8,309 nucleotides of DNA from Kiritimatiellia bacterium. Lineage in GTDB: Bacteria; Verrucomicrobiota; Kiritimatiellia; RFP12; UBA1067. The position numbers were made by a program, and so were the translations under genes. Positions 684 to 8,309 of the stretch are shown here, one piece after another. The stretch is taken from positions 1-8,309 of the forward strand of contig JAFYQC010000098.1 in NCBI GenBank assembly GCA_017547265.1, written 5' to 3'. The notes beneath the pieces are model-generated. The model ran no database searches, was not told the origin of the DNA, and was given only the letters and a program-made list of their open reading frames with translations. Each line of letters opens with the position of its first letter. The stretch's first letter is position 1.

Positions 684-732
684 AGTTTAAAGTTTAAAGT
701 TCAAAGTTCAAAGTTTAAAGTGTAAAGTGCAA
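684..732. repeat. Seven tandem heptamers in the recR-ettA spacer
   Basis: Seven head-to-tail 7-bp units run without interruption: AGTTTAA twice, AGTTCAA twice, AGTTTAA, AGTGTAA, AGTGCAA. They differ only at positions 4 and 5 of the unit. The array occupies 49 of the 71 bp between the recR stop and the ettA start and ends 5 bp from the ettA ATG, so it would form most of any ettA leader. Similar AACTTTGAACTTTAAAC arrays occur between genes in many environmental bacteria (memory, not checked). No promoter hexamers are clear within it. Confidence 0.9.
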
Positions 733-749
733 GTGTGACAATGGTGATT

Positions 750-1412
750 TTACGCTTCGCGGCGGCCCGCGATGGCGCGCTTTAGGGTGAGTGGGTCGGA
801 ATAGGCGATGCCGGAATCGGCGGGAAGCCCGAACGCAAGGCGCGTGACCTTGACGCCGGCAGGATGCCGACTTTCCCAGTCAGAGTCGCCGTGACTGGGG
901 GAGCCGCCGTCTCGGCGGCTTGTGACCCCTTTAAGAACTTCAGTAATGTAGCCGGCCGTGGCGTCGCCGTCCATGTCGGTCGAAAGCGCGAGAAGAACCT
1001 CAGCAACATTCTCTTCGCGCACGCGCGCAACGAGCTCTGAAATCCTAAGACGCTCGGGACCCATGCGGTGCGCGGGCGAGAGCTTTCCGCCAAGCGCGTG
1101 GTATCTGCCGCGGAACGCGCCCGACGCCTCGATCGACACGATGTCCGCCGGCTCCTCGACGACGCAGATGACAGAACCATCGCGCGTCGCGTCAGTGCAC
1201 ATGTCGCAAGGATCGCGGTCTATCGTCGTAAACGCGCCGCAGCGCGAGCAGCACCGCACGGAATCGTGGGCCGCCCTTAGCGCCGCGACGAGAGGTTCCG
1301 CAAGACGCGCCGGCTCGCGGACGAGCGCAAGCGCGGCGCGGGAAGCAGAGCGCCGGCCGAACCCCGGAAGCTTCGCGAGGCACTTCTCCAGCTCGGCGAC
1401 CGGCGCTATCAT
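750..1412 (-). CDS. recR: Recombination protein RecR, with an in-frame repeat insertion in the TOPRIM domain
   Basis: RecR works with RecO (and RecF) to load RecA on SSB-coated single-stranded DNA. The 220-residue product shows the family order: an N-terminal helix-hairpin-helix (about 14-31, KLPGFGRRSASRAALAL), a four-cysteine zinc site (C55, C58, C69, C72), then a TOPRIM domain from about residue 80 (VICVVEEPADIVSIE, then RYHALGGKLSPAHRMGP, then STDMDGDATAGYITEVLK). The final conserved strand GVKVTRLAFG follows. Between K161 and G186 there are about 24 residues with no counterpart in the family, encoded by a hairpin repeat. Removing them gives about 196 residues, close to the usual 200. The zinc loop spacing (ten residues between the CxxC pairs) is slightly longer than in E. 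coli. The start ATG overlaps the ybaB stop as ATGA, so translation is probably coupled. The insertion falls between a helix and a strand, a likely surface loop, and the frame stays open, so the protein is probably functional. Confidence 0.95.
   Translation of the reverse strand: MIAPVAELEKCLAKLPGFGRRSASRAALALVREPARLAEPLVAALRAAHDSVRCCSRCGAFTTIDRDPCDMCTDATRDGSVICVVEEPADIVSIEASGAFRGRYHALGGKLSPAHRMGPERLRISELVARVREENVAEVLLALSTDMDGDATAGYITEVLKGVTSRRDGGSPSHGDSDWESRHPAGVKVTRLAFGLPADSGIAYSDPLTLKRAIAGRREA
853..929. repeat. Palindromic repeat element inserted inside recR (three hairpins)
   Basis: Within 78 bp there are three consecutive potential hairpins: GCCGGC/GCCGAC (855-860/866-871, one mismatch), CCCAGTCA/TGACTGGG (875-882/892-899, perfect 8 bp) and AGCCGCC/GGCGGCT (902-908/914-920, perfect 7 bp with a GTCTC loop). 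The 855-900 part matches the tandem repeats at 8185-8309 at about 80 % identity. The element encodes about residues 162-185 of RecR, including RRDGGSPSHGDSDWESRHPA. GTGACC occurs on both sides (844-849 and 922-927), which could be a target duplication, but six bases can also arise by chance. Confidence 0.85.
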
Positions 1413-1726
1413 TTTCCGAAGAGGCCGCCTGCGCCGCCCGCCTGCATCATCTTCTGCATTTCGGCCTGCGTCGCGTCCTTCGCCTTCTTGAGAGCGCCGT
1501 TGACAACATTGAAGAGCATCGTCTCAAAGCGCTGGGGCTTGCCCGCCTTGACCTCGTCGTAGGCCTCGGGCGTGATCGCGATCTTGTCGATCGTCATGTC
1601 GCCCTTCGCGATGACGGTGATGCCGCCATTCGAGTACTCGGCCTTGATCTTCTGGATTTCGTTCTGGATGCGCTTCGCTTCGCTGCGCATCTGCATCGCC
1701 TCTTTAATCTGGTCGAACATTCCCAT
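1409..1726 (-). CDS. ybaB: YbaB/EbfC family nucleoid-associated protein
   Basis: The 105-residue product has the standard size and layout of YbaB/EbfC, a small dimeric DNA-binding protein of the nucleoid. A Met- and Lys-rich N-terminal helix (MFDQIKEAMQMRSEAKRIQNEIQKI) leads to a beta region (GGITVIAKGDMTIDKIAITPEA), then a C-terminal helix (LFNVVNGALKKAKDATQAEMQKMMQ) and a Gly-rich tail ending GGLFGK. YbaB next to recR is a widely conserved arrangement, often with dnaX upstream. Here purC takes that place. The ATG follows the purC stop by one base and the stop overlaps the recR start, so the three genes form a coupled operon. A good ribosome binding site lies inside the purC 3' end. Confidence 0.95.
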   Translation of the reverse strand: MGMFDQIKEAMQMRSEAKRIQNEIQKIKAEYSNGGITVIAKGDMTIDKIAITPEAYDEVKAGKPQRFETMLFNVVNGALKKAKDATQAEMQKMMQAGGAGGLFGK

Positions 1727-1727
1727 T

Positions 1728-2627
1728 TTACACGATCTCCCTTCCGCTGAGGTCCTTGAAGGCCTTTAGGTATATCTCGCGCGTGCGCGAGATGACGTCG
1801 TCGGGAAGGACCGGCCCCGGCGGCTGGTGGTTGAAGTTGATTGAGTCGAGCCAGTCCCTGACGTACTGCTTGTCCAACGACGGCGGGTTCTTGCCAACGG
1901 CGTAGCTCGAAACGGGCCAGAAGCGCGACGAATCGGGCGTAAGCACCTCGTCCGCGAGGATAAGCGAGCCGTCTGCGTCAAGGCCGAACTCGAACTTCGT
2001 GTCGGCGATGATGATGCCGCGCTCGCGCGCGTAGTCCGCCGCCTTCGAGTAGAGCGAGACTGTCGTGTCGCGAAGAAGCGTCGCGGTCTTTTCTCCGACG
2101 AGCTGGACGGTCTCGGCGAAGTTGATCGCCTCGTCGTGGTCGCCGATGGCGGCCTTCGTCGTCGGGGTGAAGAGGACTTCGTCGAGCTTCGAAGCGTTCT
2201 CGTAGCCCTCGCGCAGCTTCATGCCATTGACGGTTCCGGACTTCTGGTATTCCTTCCAGCCAGAGCCCGTGAGGTAGCCGCGGGCGATGCACTCGACCTC
2301 GACCATCTTGACCTTCTTGACAAGCATGGAGCGACCGCGAAGGTCTTCCTTGTAAGGCTGGAGCTCGGCCGGGTACTCGTCGACGTTCGCCGTCACGAGA
2401 TGGTTCTTCATGCCGAAGAATTCCATCCAGAAGAGCGAGAGCTGGTTGAGGACCTTGCCCTTGTCCGGCACTCCGCAGGGGAGAATTACGTCGAAAGCGC
2501 TGATGCGGTCTGTCACGACCATCAGAAGCTTGTCGCCGAGATCGAAAACATCGCGGACCTTGCCGCTCTTCTGCGGCAGCCCGGGGATCGCGCACTCGAG
2601 AAGCGCGTGGTTCTTGTCGTATTTCAT
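1728..2627 (-). CDS. purC: Phosphoribosylaminoimidazole-succinocarboxamide synthase (SAICAR synthetase)
   Basis: This enzyme couples CAIR and aspartate with ATP to give SAICAR in purine synthesis. From Met 2627 the product is 299 residues, the long yeast Ade1-like form rather than the roughly 237-residue E. coli form. Visible motifs are the N-terminal ATP-binding region SGKVRDVFDLGDKLLMVVTD (about 21-40) with RISAFD, the signature VEVECIARGYLTGSGW (109-124), the second signature IIIADTKFEFG, and ILADEVLTPDSSRFWP. The long form's C-terminal KQYVRDWL segment is also present. The frame stays open upstream to 2843, but that extension is Arg/Ser-rich and crosses intergenic hairpins. An in-frame ATG nine bases earlier (2636) would lie upstream of the predicted transcription start, so MKYD is the preferred start. 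There is no Shine-Dalgarno sequence. purC heads the purC-ybaB-recR operon. Confidence 0.96.
   Translation of the reverse strand: MKYDKNHALLECAIPGLPQKSGKVRDVFDLGDKLLMVVTDRISAFDVILPCGVPDKGKVLNQLSLFWMEFFGMKNHLVTANVDEYPAELQPYKEDLRGRSMLVKKVKMVEVECIARGYLTGSGWKEYQKSGTVNGMKLREGYENASKLDEVLFTPTTKAAIGDHDEAINFAETVQLVGEKTATLLRDTTVSLYSKAADYARERGIIIADTKFEFGLDADGSLILADEVLTPDSSRFWPVSSYAVGKNPPSLDKQYVRDWLDSINFNHQPPGPVLPDDVISRTREIYLKAFKDLSGREIV
1737..1743 (-). promoter_or_regulatory. Shine-Dalgarno sequence of ybaB, inside the purC coding end
   Basis: The minus strand reads AAGGGAG, then 10 bases, then ATG (1726-1724). The motif overlaps the last codons of purC (Arg-Glu-Ile-Val-stop), so ribosomes finishing purC are positioned to start ybaB. 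This fixes the ybaB start. Confidence 0.7.
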
Positions 2628-2636
2628 GGTCTGCAT

Positions 2637-2645
2637 ATTATAGCA
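2637..2645 (-). promoter_or_regulatory. Extended -10 promoter of purC (TGCTATAAT)
   Basis: The minus strand reads TGC-TATAAT, a perfect extended -10 element. It ends nine bases before the chosen purC ATG (2627), so transcription would begin about 3-5 bases before that codon, giving a nearly leaderless mRNA. The -35 position (GCCAAT) matches poorly, as is common with extended -10 promoters. No promoter activity has been shown. Confidence 0.55.
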
Positions 2646-2669
2646 AAATCGCCGCCCGAATTGGCGGCG
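2645..2669 (-). terminator. Hairpin plus short T run upstream of purC, possible terminator of ompP1 transcripts
   Basis: CGCCGCC (2650-2656) and GGCGGCG (2663-2669) form a perfect 7-bp stem with a six-base loop. On the minus strand the stem is followed by ATTTTGC. The T run is short, so termination may be weak. The hairpin lies across the -35/spacer of the purC promoter, so it could separate the two transcription units. Confidence 0.4.
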
Positions 2670-2740
2670 GAAATCGAAAGGCGCATCGCAGTTTGCGAGG
2701 CGGTGGAGCGAAGGTCCGAGCGAGGGGATTCGGCGTATTC

Positions 2741-2771
2741 GCCGAGGGCTCCCCGAGGAGGAGCCTTCGGC
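2741..2771 (-). terminator. Strong hairpin just after ompP1
   Basis: GCCGAGGGCTCC (2741-2752) and GGAGCCTTCGGC (2760-2771) form a 12-bp stem with one G-T wobble and a seven-base loop. It begins 17 bases after the ompP1 stop codon. No T run follows, so it may act by stabilising the mRNA 3' end or by needing Rho. A second hairpin, TCGGCG/CGCCGA with a four-base loop (2730-2745), overlaps it. Confidence 0.45.
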
Positions 2772-2788
2772 CGCCGCCTCGCGGCAGA

Positions 2789-4024
2789 TTAGAAGCGGTA
2801 GGTGAGAGTGCAACCGCCCGCATGAGAGAGGCCGTGGCGGCACTCCATGCGGTAATTGCGCCCAAGGGCATCCTTCATGTGCATGCCCTTCGCGTCCATT
2901 ATGACGAGCGCATAAGTAACGTCAATCTGGAGGTTCTCGGTAATGCGCCACGAAATGCCGCTGCCAATGATCTGGCGGTCGCCGGGGGGAAGCATCGTGG
3001 ACTGCTGCTCATACGAACAGACGTTCGTGTCGTAGATATAGGAGACGACGGCCGTCCAGTCCTTCGCGAAATCCCAGGACGGGGCGATGCCGACGCGCCA
3101 GCTGTCATGCCAGTTCAGCTTGATCTTCTTGTCGCCCTGCGAGGAGGGCAGATGGAAGAGAAGCGTGTCGAGCTCGGACCAGTCTGTCCACGAAACCATC
3201 GCGCCGAGATGCCAGTCGGACGTGATGTCCCAGTTGATGCCCGCGGCAATCGACTGAGGGATGTCGAGGTTCGCCGAAGCCGCGCCGCCTGAGACATAAC
3301 CCGGCATGCGAACGTTCGAGTGGCCCTTCACGCGCGTATCGATCTTTGACTTGTAGACCGCGCCGACGGAGAGGTTTTCGAGGATCTTGTAGCGAGTACC
3401 GATCTGCCAGCCGCACGAGGAAAGGCCGTTGTTGCCGTGCAGGTGGTTGCGAATCGACCCATACTGCGGGTTGACGTCGGCGAGATACGCCATCGGATAG
3501 GAATACTGCTCGAAGTCGAAGTAGAGAAGACGCGCGCCAGCACCAATCGACCAGTCGTCGGTGATGCGGTAGGAGACGTTCGGGTTGATGACGAAGCCCT
3601 CAATCGTCGTCTGCTTCGAACTCCAGGTCATAAGGCTGTCATGGGAGTAGCGCGTGCCGAGGCCGTATTCGGGCGTAACGCCGAGACCAAACGTAAAGCC
3701 CCAGAGCGCAGGCGCGACGATCTGGAAGTGAGGAAGGACGAAAAAGCCAGGATCCATGGGCGAGCACTTGTATTGCTTGCCGTCACGGGAAATACTGATG
3801 CGCCCACGCGGGTGTTCCGTAACGAACCCAACCTGGACTGTGATGTTTGTAATGTCGTCGAGAGTAGCCGGGTTGATTGAGTTGGCAGAGCCGTCAAGAC
3901 CCCTGCCGAGCAACGCCCCACCGTGGGCTGTGCCGATGGCCGTAGGCTCGTAGAGAGCAAAACCAGACGCAAACGCAGCCGATGCCGCGAGAACCGCCGT
4001 AGTCAGTGCCAAAAGCTTTTTCAT
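2789..4024 (-). CDS. OmpP1/FadL/TodX-family outer-membrane transport protein
   Basis: The family forms 14-stranded outer-membrane barrels that take up long-chain fatty acids or other hydrophobic compounds. From ATG 4024 the product is 411 residues. It starts with a signal peptide (MKKLLALTTAVLAASAAFA, likely cleaved before SGFALYE). The FadL-type plug/hatch sequence follows: SGFALYEPTAIGTAHGGALLGR then SANSINPATL, with the family's NPA motif. The rest is alternating aromatic/polar strand-like sequence, and the last residues are TLTYRF, the terminal Phe recognised by the BAM machinery. A GTG nine bases upstream is in frame, but a clear ribosome binding site is spaced correctly only for ATG 4024. 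Substrate cannot be inferred. The gene appears monocistronic, with its own strong promoter and a hairpin after the stop. A TetR-family gene lies directly upstream. Confidence 0.9.
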   Translation of the reverse strand: MKKLLALTTAVLAASAAFASGFALYEPTAIGTAHGGALLGRGLDGSANSINPATLDDITNITVQVGFVTEHPRGRISISRDGKQYKCSPMDPGFFVLPHFQIVAPALWGFTFGLGVTPEYGLGTRYSHDSLMTWSSKQTTIEGFVINPNVSYRITDDWSIGAGARLLYFDFEQYSYPMAYLADVNPQYGSIRNHLHGNNGLSSCGWQIGTRYKILENLSVGAVYKSKIDTRVKGHSNVRMPGYVSGGAASANLDIPQSIAAGINWDITSDWHLGAMVSWTDWSELDTLLFHLPSSQGDKKIKLNWHDSWRVGIAPSWDFAKDWTAVVSYIYDTNVCSYEQQSTMLPPGDRQIIGSGISWRITENLQIDVTYALVIMDAKGMHMKDALGRNYRMECRHGLSHAGGCTLTYRF

Positions 4025-4032
4025 TATGTTCA

Positions 4033-4038
4033 CTCCTT
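4033..4038 (-). promoter_or_regulatory. Shine-Dalgarno sequence of ompP1
   Basis: The minus strand reads AAGGAG, eight bases before ATG 4024. It overlaps the in-frame GTG at 4033-4031, which rules that codon out as the main start. This is the clearest ribosome binding site in the window. Confidence 0.8.
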
Positions 4039-4067
4039 GTTGATAATTTGTTTATTACCTGTTTAGG

Positions 4068-4082
4068 TGTAACAGTGTGACA
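4068..4082. promoter_or_regulatory. Palindromic operator candidate at the ompP1 transcription start
   Basis: TGTAACA-G-TGTGACA is a 15-bp palindrome (one mismatched pair) made of two TGTnACA modules. It directly abuts the -10 box and covers the expected start of transcription, where a bound repressor would block initiation. The product of the TetR-family gene ending at 4256 is the obvious candidate to bind it, but that is inference. It could also be the site of an unrelated regulator. Confidence 0.45.
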
Positions 4083-4110
4083 TTATATGCTTTTCTGTCG
4101 CAAACGTCAA
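4082..4110 (-). promoter_or_regulatory. Sigma70 promoter of ompP1
   Basis: The minus strand reads TTGACG (4110-4105), a 17-base spacer, then TATAAT (4087-4082). This is one mismatch from the full consensus at ideal spacing and lies in an AT-rich stretch. Transcription should start near 4075, giving a leader of about 50 bases that carries the AAGGAG site. Confidence 0.8.
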
Positions 4111-4170
4111 TGGGGAAAGTTAAGATTTACACAAAATGGATAGTTTTAATCAGATTTTCAGTATTTTCAA

Positions 4171-4235
4171 CCACAAAGAACACATAGATCACATAAAATT
4201 CCAGATAACCCTCTGTGTCTTTGTGCCTCTGTGTT
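4171..4235. repeat. Dispersed intergenic inverted repeat (CACAAAG/CACAGAG type)
   Basis: The arms CACAAAGAACACA (4172-4184) and TGTGTCTTTGTG (4214-4225) pair with one bulge. The right part, 4211-4235, read on the minus strand matches 20 of 25 bases of 7523-7547 upstream of icd, with four of the five differences being transitions. It lies just after tetR and before the ompP1 promoter. Repeats of this type are familiar between genes in many bacterial phyla (memory). It may form a weak terminator for tetR. Confidence 0.8.
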
Positions 4236-4255
4236 AAAAAAATGAAGCCACAAGT

Positions 4256-4849
4256 TTACGCCGAAATCGAGCGGATCATATCGGAGACGCGAACCTTGAC
4301 GTTCGCGGAATTCGACTCGGTGCCGAGAACAATTCGTAGGACGCAGGACTCGAGAATTGCGTAAAGACCCTCGGCCGTTCGCTCGGGGTCAACTTCGGGA
4401 AGGAACTCGCCCTTCATGACGCCCTCGGTGACAAGCTTAGCAAACACGGCCTTGATGCCGCCAGTGAAGCGCGTAATGCGCGCACCCATGTCCTCGCCCG
4501 AGCGAACCATCGACAGCACGAAGTCGAAAATCGCCGACATGAACTCCTTCTTTTCGAAAAGGACGTCGGCCACATGGAAGCAGACCATCGCGAGGCGATC
4601 CGCCGCCTTGCCGCGCTTCGCAATCTCCGCCTTGCAGTCCTTCATTATCTGCCGCGTCGCAGCGAGAATCGCCGCATCGAGGACTTCGCGCTTCGAGCGG
4701 AAGTAGCGGTAGAGCACCGTGCGGGCGACGCCGGCCGACGACGCTATCATCATGAGCGTCACGTTGTCGTAGCCGACCTGAGAGAAAAGCTTCATCGCCC
4801 TGGAGGCGATCTCAAGCCGACGCGATTCGTGGTCTATTCTTGCGGACAT
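4256..4849 (-). CDS. TetR/AcrR-family transcriptional regulator
   Basis: The 197-residue product has the family's standard size. The N-terminal DNA-binding domain (about 10-57) reads [20 protein letters not shown], then VTLMMIASSAGVARTVLYRYF, then RSKREVLDAAI, with the characteristic helix-turn-helix and the YRYF motif of the recognition helix. The C-terminal two thirds is helical and would bind an unknown ligand and mediate dimerisation. The start is fixed because helix 1 begins at about residue 10. It overlaps the end of the radical SAM gene by 38 bp, so it is probably co-transcribed and translationally coupled. No Shine-Dalgarno sequence is visible. The next gene downstream, ompP1, has a palindrome at its promoter that is a plausible target. 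Confidence 0.92.
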   Translation of the reverse strand: MSARIDHESRRLEIASRAMKLFSQVGYDNVTLMMIASSAGVARTVLYRYFRSKREVLDAAILAATRQIMKDCKAEIAKRGKAADRLAMVCFHVADVLFEKKEFMSAIFDFVLSMVRSGEDMGARITRFTGGIKAVFAKLVTEGVMKGEFLPEVDPERTAEGLYAILESCVLRIVLGTESNSANVKVRVSDMIRSISA

Positions 4850-6278
4850 ACTCTAGTTCGTTTTTCGCGAAGTTGGACTTCAGCGGTTTCACGATTATAC
4901 CAAATTTCTCCGGCTCGCGGGCGATAGGCGAGTGAACGGTGAGCGCAAAGCGGTGCCAGAAGCACGACTGTATGAGCCCCTTCTTCGCAAGCGACTTGAC
5001 GTACCGCTCTGCGCCCTTCTGCTCCTCTTTCGTTTCCGTCGGGAAGTCGTACATAAGGTAGGCGTGGACGAATATCTTCGCAGCCCTGAAGCCCCTTAGA
5101 ACCTTCTCCGCCGACGCACACGTGATGCCTTTGTTCATCAGCTTGAGAAGACGGTCGTTCGCGCACTCGAGCCCACCAGTCACCGCGATGCACCCCGCCC
5201 GCGCCATCTTCTTCGCGAGCGCAGGCGTAAAGGCGTTGTCGAAGCGGATGTTGCCCCACCACTCGACTTCAAGCTTTCTCCGCAAGATCTCGTCGCAAAC
5301 CGCCGAGACGAGGGCAGGCGGCATCGCCTCGTCAACGAAGTGGACGCCGGTGAGAAAAGAGGGGAAGAACTCCTCAATGCAGTCGACGATCTCAGAGGCC
5401 TTGGGCATCTTGAAGCATCCGATGTAGGGAAGCTTCACGTCGCAAAACGCGCACTTCCGCCAGTAACAGCCGCGCGCCATCACGAGCTTCACCCACTTGC
5501 CGCAGTTCCACAGGTTCGTGACGAAGTTGTCTGTCTCGGCGACGTCGAAATACTCGCCCCAGTCGATGCCCTCGTAGTCCGGCTTCACGAACAGCGGCAC
5601 ATCTGCCGCGGTCGTCTTGCGGTCTCCGAGCAGCTTCGCAAACGGCGCATATCCCTCATCGAGCTGGAATTCATCGAAGTACTTGTAAGGCCGCCTGTCC
5701 GTCATCTCGCGAAGTTCCGTCGAGACATATCCGCCGCCTAGCACGAGTCGGACGCCGGGATAGCGGCGCTTTATGTAGCGCGCAATCTTGAATGCCGCGA
5801 CGAGAGTCCCAGGGAACGGGCAGGTTATGCCGACGATCGCCGGTCTCGTCTCTTCCATCGCCGCCTTGAGGTGGCGTTCAAGGGGCTTGTCGATCACTCC
5901 GCGCCGGCGTATCCTGCGCTCTAGTTCACCGAAGTCGGCGACGGCGCGGCACAGGTGTTCGGCGTAGCGCGAGAAGCCGAAGTCGGGATCGACGTTGTCT
6001 CGTATCCATATGGCAAGCTCATCAATCGCCTCGCTTGCCTCGCGCTTCGCCTCAACAGGCGCGAGGCCACCGAGGAACTCGAGAAGCTCGCCCGTCGTCT
6101 CGTCGCCGTATTCGAGAAGAACGTCTCGCACGACCTTTATCGAGAGGTCGCGCTGGGCGACGTCAAACCCGCGCGACTTCAGATACCCCGCCAGATGCAT
6201 CGTCGCCGGATAGGGAGTATTCGGCTGCAGCAGCGGCGGGGTCAGAAGGAGAAGTTTACATCGCCTTCGCGAGGGCAT
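4812..6278 (-). CDS. Radical SAM protein with cobalamin-binding-like N-terminal domain
   Basis: The 488-residue protein has a Rossmann-like N-terminal region typical of B12-binding radical SAM enzymes ([19 protein letters not shown] at about 10-27, later [14 protein letters not shown] and [10 protein letters not shown] at 178-187). The DxHxxG motif that anchors cobalamin is not seen, so cobalamin may not be bound. The radical SAM core follows. The [4Fe-4S] cysteines C271, C276 and C279 lie in [13 protein letters not shown] with Cx4Cx2C spacing instead of the classical Cx3Cx2[20 protein letters not shown] (368-386) and YDFPTET (410-416) are later core motifs. Some uncharacterised families carry the same GCxWxxCxFC form (memory). 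The conserved N-terminus requires the start at 6278, which overlaps icd by 23 bp. The reaction and substrate are unknown. Confidence 0.88.
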
Positions 6279-7479
6279 TTCCGAACTCGGAGCACTTGAT
6301 TTCCTTCGCGCCTTCCATCTGGCGGGCGAAGTCGTAAGTGACGGTCTTCGCGGCGATCACCTTGTCCATCGCGGCGATGATCTTGTCAGCGGCCTCGGTC
6401 CAGCCCATGTACCTGAGCATCATCTCGCCTGAGAGGATGAGCGAACCGGGGTTGACCTTGTCGAGACCTGCGTACTTCGGCGCAGTGCCGTGTGTCGCCT
6501 CGAACACTGCGACGCCCGTCTGGTAGTTGATGTTCGCTCCTGGCGCGATGCCGATGCCGCCGACCGTCGCAGCGAGAGCGTCGGAAACGTAGTCGCCGTT
6601 CAGGTTCAGAGTCGCAATCACATCGTACTCGGCGGGGCGCGTCAGTATCTGCTGGAGAAACGCGTCGCAGATGCAGTCCTTCACCGTAATCATGCGGCCG
6701 GTCTTTGGATTCTTGAACTCGCACCATGGCCCCTTGTCGATCAAGGTCGCGCCGTACTCGCGCTGCGCAAGCTTGTAGCCCCAGTCGCGGAACGCGCCCT
6801 CGGTGAATTTCTGGATGTTACCCTTGTGGACGAGCGTCACCGACTTGCGGTCGTTATCGATCGCGTAGTCAAGCGCCGCCTTCACGAGGCGCTCGGTGCC
6901 CTCAAGCGAAACGGGCTTGATGCCAATCGACGCCGTCTTCGGGAAGCGTATCTTCTTTACGCCCATCTCGCCAAGGAGAAACGCCTTGACCTTCTCGACT
7001 TCGGGCGTGCCGTTCATCCACTCGATGCCTGCGTAGATGTCCTCGGTGTTCTCGCGGAAGATCACCATGTCGGTGAGCTCGGGGCGCTTCACGGGAGAAG
7101 GAACTCCCTTGAACCAGCGGACTGGTCTGAGGCACACATAGAGGTCGAGCTCCTGACGCATCGCGACGTTGATGGACCTGATTCCGCCACCAACCGGAGT
7201 CGTGAGCGGGCCCTTGATGGAGACAAGGTTCTCGCGGCACGCATCGAGCGTCGCCTGGGGAAGCCACTCGCCAGTTGCCCTAAACGCCTTCTCGCCGGCA
7301 AGGACTTCCTTCCACTCGATCTTGCGCTTGCCGCCATAGGCCTTTTCGACCGCGGCATTCCACACCGTCATCGCCGCGCGCGTAATGTCGGGGCCTGTGC
7401 CGTCGCCCTCAATGTATGGAATAACAGGGTTCTCGGGAACGCAAAGCTTCCCGTCCTTCATTGTGATCTTTTCGCTCAT
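6256..7479 (-). CDS. icd: NADP-dependent isocitrate dehydrogenase
   Basis: The enzyme oxidises isocitrate to 2-oxoglutarate in the TCA cycle. The 407-residue product closely resembles E. coli Icd throughout. Substrate residues are S102, N104, R108, R118, R142, Y149 and K219. S102 lies in [18 protein letters not shown] and corresponds to the serine phosphorylated by AceK. Metal-binding aspartates lie in [18 protein letters not shown]-selecting residues K335 and Y336 (HGTAPKYAG), with Y382 and R386 ([10 protein letters not shown]), argue for NADP rather than NAD. The start [12 protein letters not shown] aligns with the family. No Shine-Dalgarno sequence is visible. The stop overlaps the radical SAM start. 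A candidate -10 box lies 21 bp upstream of the ATG. No aceK is seen here, so regulation by phosphorylation cannot be assumed. Confidence 0.97.
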
Positions 7480-7559: not shown

Positions 7560-8309
7560 CTACTTGCCGAGGGCCTTTTTGAGTGTGCTAGCGCCGCCCG
7601 AGGGCGCTGCACCCGTGAGGTCCGCCTCGTCGACCTCCACCTGCTCGGAGTCGATCCAGAAGCGGATGCGCTTGCCGCGCACGATCTGCGGCTGCGCTTT
7701 CGACTCGTCACGCACTTCGGCCGTGATGCCGTCGCCCGAATAGAGGATGACAAGGCCGTTCTTCTTTGAATAAGTCGCCTTCGCGCCATAAGCGCGGTGT
7801 GCTTCGTTCGTCATCGCGACATGACCGATCGCCACCACGCGGCGGACATCGCCCGCGGCGCGGCGCATGTCGTCCGTGCCTTTTGCGGCTTTGTGAACGT
7901 CGTTAGTGCCCTTTGCCGCACGATGCACGTCGTTTGTGCCCTTTGCCACGCGATGCACGTCGTTTGTCGAGTTGGAGTCCTTATCGACGTCGAAGAAGAG
8001 GAACACGCGGTCGGCATGCAGCTGGTACTGCTCGTCGTCGAGGTGAACGTGACCCTCGAAGCTCGCGATACCTTCCTTGCGGTTGTAGACGGTGGTATCA
8101 GAGGTGATCTTCGCAGGGCGGCCAGTCAGCTTCTTTTCCTTGGATTTCTTTGGGAGGGGTTTCTCGACTTTAGACTCGGCATTGGTGACTGGGGAATCTG
8201 TCGGCACTGTCGCCGGCAAGATGCCGGCTTTCCCAGTTACAGTCTCAGTAACAGGGGCATCCTCCTGCACTGTCGCCGGCAAGATGCCGGCTTTCCCAGT
8301 TACAGTCTC
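7560..8309 (-). CDS. LptA/OstA-like periplasmic protein with internal repeats, N-terminus beyond the window
   Basis: The frame is open from 8309 to a TAG stop at 7562-7560 (249 residues seen). After an N-terminal linker rich in Thr, Pro and Lys, the central part reads PAKITSDTTVYNRKEGIASF, then EGHVHLDDEQYQLHADRVFLFFD, later VRRVVAIGHVAMTN and AYGAKATYSKKNGLVILYSG. This is the pattern of the OstA/LptA beta-jellyroll (G-V-x-L, then A-D, then V-x-A-x-G-x-V), which carries lipopolysaccharide across the periplasm. Two regions are unusual: a 21-residue tandem repeat (TGKAGILPA) near the visible N-terminus, and about three and a half ten-residue repeats (NDVHRAAKGT) between two jellyroll strands. 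A TTG at 8282 is unlikely to be a start, because repeat coding continues upstream of it. No signal peptide is visible since the start is missing. It could also be an LptC-like or chimeric member. Confidence 0.6.
   Translation of the reverse strand, partial: ETVTGKAGILPATVQEDAPVTETVTGKAGILPATVPTDSPVTNAESKVEKPLPKKSKEKKLTGRPAKITSDTTVYNRKEGIASFEGHVHLDDEQYQLHADRVFLFFDVDKDSNSTNDVHRVAKGTNDVHRAAKGTNDVHKAAKGTDDMRRAAGDVRRVVAIGHVAMTNEAHRAYGAKATYSKKNGLVILYSGDGITAEVRDESKAQPQIVRGKRIRFWIDSEQVEVDEADLTGAAPSGGASTLKKALGK
7864..7967. repeat. 30-bp tandem repeat inside the LptA-like gene
   Basis: Three 30-bp units (7864-7893, 7894-7923, 7924-7953) plus 14 bp of a fourth (7954-7967) share the core GTCGTTTGTGCCCTTTGCC with substitutions. 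They encode NDVHRVAKGT, NDVHRAAKGT, NDVHKAAKGT and a degenerate DDMRRAAG. The period is a multiple of three, so the frame is preserved. There are no spacers. Confidence 0.9.
8185..8309. repeat. 63-bp tandem palindromic repeat in the N-terminal part of the LptA-like gene
   Basis: Two units, 8185-8247 and 8248-8309 (the last base lies beyond the window), are identical over most of their right two thirds. Each holds a perfect GCCGGC-AAGAT-GCCGGC hairpin (8212-8228 and 8275-8291). CCCAGTTAC (8232-8240) pairs with GTAACAGGG (8248-8256) with one mismatch. The repeat encodes 21 residues including ETVTGKAGILPATV. It is homologous to the element inside recR and probably continues past the window edge. 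Confidence 0.9.

Follow-up and report, generated by a model that had tools for sequence, protein, structure and literature searches.

The recR gene within an 8,309-nucleotide stretch of Kiritimatiellia DNA (the window, meaning the whole of that stretch) carries an in-frame insert that has the make-up of a REPIN-like doublet, that is, two inverted 29-bp units each composed of TRACTGGGRRA, a hairpin, and a final G. We put the probability at roughly 80% that this is a REPIN-like, non-autonomous element, most likely moved by a RAYT-type transposase and tolerated in recR; movement by a RAYT, the order of events, and tolerance at the protein level are the parts of this account that we infer. To judge from its sequence, the family falls outside the two tagged REP superfamilies, and intragenic in-frame REPs have been published before. 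The window provides an unusually clear polymorphic insertion of a REP doublet in a core repair gene, and the related genomes add Kiritimatiellae REP/RAYT arrangements whose ACTGGG head is untagged.

The recR gene and its insert

The recR gene occupies 750..1412 on the minus strand and encodes 220 amino acids in a frame that is uninterrupted throughout. The protein contains the Pfam Toprim and RecR domains and scored 180.2 bits against the TIGR00615 profile (cut-off 162.55). DNA alignment with L002-L007 places a net insert of 66 bp at 861..926 (minus), and blastn alignments to L002 and L004 break at 860/926. The insert encodes 22 amino acids, residues 163-184 (VTSRRDGGSPSHGDSDWESRHP), with G162 and A185 as flanking residues; its junction is not sharp to the base, since the native GCNGGC is similar to the GCCGGC that ends the repeat. 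A sequence-only reading of this DNA had proposed an in-frame insertion that leaves the gene unbroken, and both the open frame and the 66-bp net difference from empty sister loci bear this out, although its limits (residues 162-185) were one residue too wide at each end. Residues C55, C58, C69, C72, D146, and D150, which we take to be the zinc and Toprim residues of the RecR family, are invariant in a 57-row RecR alignment, in agreement with the same reading's claim that catalytic and zinc positions are kept.

The repeat itself comprises REP unit A, whose 26-base core at 855..880 (minus) has one mismatch to the search pattern and whose edges, from the pattern scan and a 54-unit consensus, lie at about 854-882, and REP unit B at 894..919 (plus), which is inverted relative to unit A and matches the pattern without mismatch. 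The two units lie 39 bp apart from start to start. The spacer between the cores (881..893, no strand), together with both heads, corresponds to the middle hairpin in the fold and the scan. Region 850-932 folds into three hairpins at -39.7 kcal/mol, compared with -30.1 (sd 3.04; z -3.16) for 200 shuffles, only one of which was as good as the native fold. Four of the six reading frames are stop-free over the doublet at 854-920, and three of six over the net insert at 861-926, owing to a stop at 923-925 in one reverse frame.

The window, from an uncultured bacterium, is close to Kiritimatiellae metagenome-assembled genomes of the gut, and these relatives contain both filled and empty versions of this site. 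RecR proteins from RUG14463 (L001), RUG14632 (L002), RUG12612 (L003), and RGIG2266 (L004, goat duodenum) are 87-95% identical to that of the window over the best segment, and alignments of L002 and L004 cover the greater part of window 757-7416, with DNA identities of 82-95% by segment. Among the six nearest genome loci, the insert occurs in one (L001) and the site is empty in five (L002-L006), whose recR genes are 89-95% identical to the window at the DNA level; the same 66 bp set the window and L001 apart from L002-L007. Alignment with close relatives, a check that the sequence-only reading had proposed, thus found the insert missing from its sister loci. A RecR tree built without the insert implies three changes of insert state with weak support, and the insert-free L003 groups with the window, which leaves room for loss, recombination, or more than one gain.

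Protein lengths agree with the earlier claim that the insert has no counterpart in the RecR family. In the best 120 of 2,762 homologues, 112 proteins have 198-199 residues and eight have 220-246. All eight longer proteins (P0001-P0008) contain the window's insert, and seven of them carry extra 10-residue copies and/or a 16-residue block: DGGSPSHGDS is present three times in P0002 and P0003, twice in P0004-P0007, and once in P0001 and P0008, with the additional 16-residue block in the inserts of P0007 and P0008. P0009 has no insert at 96% identity over aligned residues. In the 57 aligned RecRs, the loop measures two residues in 45 rows, 3-7 residues in eight, and 24, 24, 44, and 50 residues in the four element-bearing rows, which speaks against unrelated sequences of similar length at this point across the clade, the finding that the sequence-only reading had named as fatal to its proposal. 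Chance is excluded as the origin of the insert, because the identical peptide stands at the same site in P0001-P0008 and L001 and a near-identical copy lies in an unrelated gene of the related genome G004 (99% over 69 bases).

We found that recR is under purifying selection. Its dN/dS was 0.072 between the window and L001, 0.056 between the window and L002, and 0.043 between the window and L003; insert-free pairs gave 0.068 (L002-L003) and 0.012 (L002-L005). Comparisons with L007 covered only 38-39 codons and were left unused. An AlphaFold model based on 57 sequences had a mean pLDDT of 85.5 and superseded one based on 29 close sequences (pLDDT 59.5). Only residues 166-184 fell below 50, and the blocks after the insert reached 63-83. 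In the solved RecR structure 3vdp, window residue 161 aligns directly beside residue 184. We therefore read the insert as a predicted disordered loop that links helix 147-165 to strand 188-191, in line with the exposed loop for which the sequence-only reading had suggested looking in a structure model.

Two further observations concern this gene and its surroundings. A short tandem repeat of AAAGTTT / AAAGTTC lies at window 684-732, between recR and an ABC-F-type gene. The RecR encoded by L064, a record titled as an Akkermansia muciniphila metagenome-assembled genome (MAG), is 51% identical to that of the window over the best segment, and the label may be doubtful.

Dispersal of the repeat in related genomes and genes

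The unit consensus, derived from 54 units of the window, L081, and L193-L212, is TRACTGGGRRA-GCCGSC-RTCYY-GSCGGC-G, 29 bp in length with sharp edges. In order to count copies, we scanned 49 related genomes with the 26-base core pattern at no more than three mismatches, using the reversed pattern as a control and leaving out L030. The pattern was found in 21 of the 49 genomes, with 284 matches in all; the reversed pattern gave 11, at 0-2 per genome. Fifteen genomes had 2-97 matches, six had one, and 28 had none, so that high copy number is confined to some genomes only; the richest were G035 (97), G033 (74), G009 (27), G007 (21), and G003 (15). In genomes with 1-4 matches, which include G001, G002, G004, and G005, the count is little higher than the 0-2 of the control; both matches of G001 lie in recR. 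The counts also mix subfamilies, because many G009 matches have the variant stem GCGGGC...GCCCGC and many G038 and G033 matches have an ATGG-type head. The regions fetched around pattern places left out G005 C136 and C5, G003 C6, G009 C3, and some others.

Inverted doublets with heads facing each other and 39 bp from start to start were found in recR, in a GH92 gene, in a glycyl-radical-enzyme gene, and in several copies flanking RAYT genes; units also frequently occur singly or in direct arrays. In the set of 54, GRRA mostly precedes the stem and the outer end is TRAC, with no GTAG tag, and CGTC is unconserved at either edge. The native bases after the stem of the recR copy happen to read GTC. 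A distant blastn search with the insert gave no match in phage or plasmid records.

When the search demanded a fixed string for the first 27 bases, the window recR doublet agreed at 65/66 bases with the GH92 doublet of G004 and at 63/66 with the L001 recR doublet; unconstrained blastn of the insert gave 99% over 69 bases in G004 and 95% over 79 in G001. Locus segments shared by the window and G004 are 90.5% (3169 bases), 89.1% (1545), 93.5% (801), 82.2% (867), and 91.3% (104) identical. We read this comparison, in which the two doublet matches differ by only two bases, as pointing to recent movement or exchange of the doublet.

To place copies relative to genes, we used a hexamer coding model trained on 258 ORFs, which scored the true frame highest for 7/7 window genes tested. 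In a selection of matches forming 97 clusters outside the window, with 120-bp flanks, 59 were intergenic-like, 24 had one side coding, nine were in frame, and five had coding sequence on both sides with no single open frame. An earlier rule with 240-bp flanks had placed 3/40 clusters in frame through a coding region, and recR itself escapes both rules, as the end of the gene is too near. The G033 and G035 regions were a selection of 20 each from the listed places, and three clusters at contig ends (two in G033, one in the window) were left unjudged.

Four of the nine in-frame clusters, in G004 and G007, lie in genes for a GH92 enzyme (L202), a PFL-like glycyl radical enzyme (L196), an alpha-2-macroglobulin (L199), and a GH43-like enzyme (L198, named by sequence reading); the other five, in G033 (L265, L271, L283) and G035 (L285, L297), are model-based. 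The glycyl-radical-enzyme loop is 24 amino acids long in 10/10 readable orthologues (L250 being unreadable) and 100 in G007, and the alpha-2-macroglobulin loop has 12 amino acids in 5/5 orthologues as compared with 64 where the repeat is present. Both comparisons show clean empty sites at genes other than recR. The GH92, GH43-like, and LptA cases are weaker, because relatives have other variable linker sequence there. The recR, GH92, and PFL copies use the frame SRRDGGSPSHGDSDWESRHPAG, and the alpha-2-macroglobulin, GH43-like, and LptA copies use the frame AAETAAPPV...LTGKAGILPA. An apparent contrast in spacing, with multiples of three in genes and free spacing outside, was dropped, since 39, 33, and 66 bp also occur outside genes.

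The LptA-like ORF belongs to the window itself (7560..8309, minus, cut by the window end; TIGR03002 37.7 bits, below the cut-off of 71.7). It contains two REP units in frame, which give VTGKAGILPA twice, at 8212..8237 and 8275..8300 (both minus, zero mismatches in the pattern scan), 63 bp apart. The sequence-only reading had stated that the three-hairpin sequence of recR recurs in the window; the hairpins were confirmed, while what recurs is only the repeat unit, at these two places, and not the whole. Sister loci L305 and L306 lack the REP peptide and have different linker sequence in its place. In-frame 30-bp tandem repeats at 7855-7944 of the same ORF are present, with changes, in L305 and L306.

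Other repeats were observed in some of these genes. The GH92 orthologues L232/L233 (G005, G006) have a different in-frame palindrome, GTCGCGTCGGAGACGCGAC, at the loop that holds the REPIN in G004, and among the loci fetched up to that comparison it was found in these two only. L258 (the G001 alpha-2-macroglobulin) and L254 (the G015 GH43-like enzyme) contain more in-frame inserts, of other repeat-like sequence and in neighboring loops, which suggests that several repeat families enter genes in the Kiritimatiellae clade.

RAYT-type genes and the origin of the insert

In two genomes a RAYT-type gene has units of this REP to its left and right, 11 of them in G003 (contig C21) and four in G007 (C23). 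The encoded proteins, 59% identical to each other, score 36.3 bits (G003; cut-off 23) and 33.9 bits (G007 C23) against Y1_Tnp PF01797, and PNHVHV (HxH motif) occurs in both; the G003 protein, at 67.7 bits, stayed below the cut-off of 80 for NF047646 REP_Tyr_transpos. A search with the G007 protein returned 20 places, its own included, in 13/49 genomes. One hairpin type was present on both sides at 16 of these 20 places, compared with 3/2000 random placements in L001-L060, which fell mostly in genes rather than in intergenic DNA; for six of the 20 loci, position 1501 was taken as the start of the match, and these six include L321, which is among the four places without the arrangement.

At the level of whole genomes, the association between REPs and Y1_Tnp is weak. 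Y1_Tnp was detected with Pfam in 10/10 genomes with at least three pattern matches, but also in 37/49 overall; of the 12 Pfam-negative genomes, two have one match and ten have none, and in two of them (G011 and G047) the protein search found a RAYT relative that the Pfam scan had missed.

In the mechanism that we favor, the element would consist of two inverted REP units, each with a short G+C-rich hairpin behind an unpaired 5' head (TRACTGGGRRA), and would be moved as a non-autonomous repeat by a RAYT. RAYTs are single-strand transposases of the HUH/Y1 type, and in two related genomes the RAYT gene is itself flanked by this REP. One copy would have entered recR at a tight turn between the last helix and the last strand of the Toprim fold. 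The insertion would have survived because 66 bp is a multiple of three, the frame used is stop-free, and the 22 residues form a disordered loop. Later, length steps that preserve the frame would have brought in one block of 16 residues as well as units of 10, the latter presumably through tandem duplication of 30 bp.

The palindrome could instead be Rickettsia-like and have spread by another route, such as a different transposase, template switching, or gene conversion between hairpins, with its adjacency to RAYT genes being fortuitous. A protein search (E <= 1e-8) found the G003/G007 RAYT clade neither in G001, G002, and G004, the genomes nearest to the window, nor in G009 and G033, which are rich in REPs. 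All five have pattern matches, and this speaks for such a route; they have other Y1_Tnp proteins. The window's lineage may hold relic copies, imports from elsewhere, or an unassembled RAYT (MAGs may be incomplete). Fortuitous adjacency is spoken against by the REPs on both sides of the G003 and G007 genes, by the 16/20 places against 3/2000 at random, and by the RAYT relatives of 50% identity in G035 and G041, whose hairpins share the ACTGGG head and differ in the stem. We consider this other route improbable. Much less probable still is that the insert arose by slippage or as a natural difference in length within a RecR loop that tolerates it, with no mobile element involved. The slippage-like changes that the tandem 10-residue copies show inside the insert, as well as the loops of 3-7 residues in 8/57 RecRs, would be expected from such a process, and slippage or length variation is the best account of the later copy-number changes. 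As the origin of the original insertion, however, it is refuted by the identity of the inserted DNA with a dispersed repeat that also lies in unrelated genes of other genomes. Least probable of all is an artefact of metagenome assembly or a chimera: all sources are indeed metagenome assemblies, yet the insert was recovered in the window, in RUG14463 (L001), in the JGI protein P0002, and in seven ENA clusters, and P0001 stands for 39 sequences.

Beyond the RAYT-moved doublet, a REP/RAYT lineage of gut Kiritimatiellae might have become partly adapted to genes, as a running source of new protein segments including that of RecR. This idea draws on the doublet period, a multiple of three, on the open frames, on the flexible G/S/P/A-rich peptides, and on loops that expand in 10-residue steps; we regard it as unlikely.

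Several observations were made at the RAYT loci. In L308-L327, most RAYT relatives have a flanking hairpin type of their own, the ACTGGG head persisting in the nearest ones while the stems differ, a possible series of RAYT/hairpin co-evolution. RAYT matches in G035 (C98 and C24), G041 (C39), and G032 (C409) fall in unusually long open frames of 730-797 residues. The stop-to-stop frame of the G007 RAYT (L195:2102-2941, minus) starts and finishes in REP-encoded sequence, and in G009 C21 (L215) a partial Y1_Tnp match at the end of the contig has a variant REP close to it.

Relation to described REP systems

The closest precedent is the set of intragenic, in-frame GTAG/CGTC REPs for which Opitutus terrae and Rickettsia conorii are the chief examples. 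Over half of these REPs form dimers or groups that encode 20-30 residues, and many lie in DNA-repair genes (Di Nocera et al. 2013, PMC3733652). The main text of that paper describes most REP units as intergenic and RAYT genes as REP-flanked, and does not name recR. The likeness lies in hairpin repeats that sit in frame in conserved genes, and O. terrae is also a PVC bacterium; the repeats found here differ in having neither a GTAG nor a CGTC tag and in that the copy number of the encoded peptide varies among close relatives. Filled and empty RecR forms are only about 4% apart in protein divergence, with graded peptide copy numbers of 1, 2, and 3, and this polymorphism and copy series make the question raised in 2013, whether genic REPs are tolerated or useful, testable in one protein.

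REPINs are two inverted REPs with a spacer that form hairpins and are linked to RAYTs (Bertels and Rainey 2011, PMC3116915). The inverted doublet, the hairpins, and the RAYT link are shared with the present elements. In P. fluorescens SBW25, 14 of 1,067 occurrences of the commonest 16-mers are given in that paper as overlapping genes (PMC3116915), whereas several of the present copies are intragenic. For TnpAREP classes 2.6 and 3, a further report describes tyrosine transposase genes whose flanking hairpins lack GT[AG]G, with class 3 mainly in Planctomycetes, Acidobacteria, and Proteobacteria and carrying the foot CnGA (PMC6006769); the four bases before the stem are here mostly GRRA.

Rickettsia palindromic elements are in-frame palindromes that add peptides to unrelated protein genes, of about 150 bp as first reported in one account (PMC10969869), and are listed as CGTC-tagged in another (PMC3733652). 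An in-frame palindrome in conserved protein genes is found here as well; the described length or CGTC tag sets those elements apart. The suggestion of the sequence-only reading that a mobile or amplifying palindrome, resembling the Rickettsia ones but of different sequence, had entered recR agrees with the dispersal of the repeat in related genomes and its presence in frame in other genes; the repeat is probably mobile. Judged by titles and the starts of abstracts, none of the matches listed in the open-licence PMC literature describes REPs of Kiritimatiellae. In the window itself, a G+C-rich, inverted-repeat-like stretch at 2640-2790, read by eye between purC and an outer-membrane-type gene, is possibly another palindrome family.
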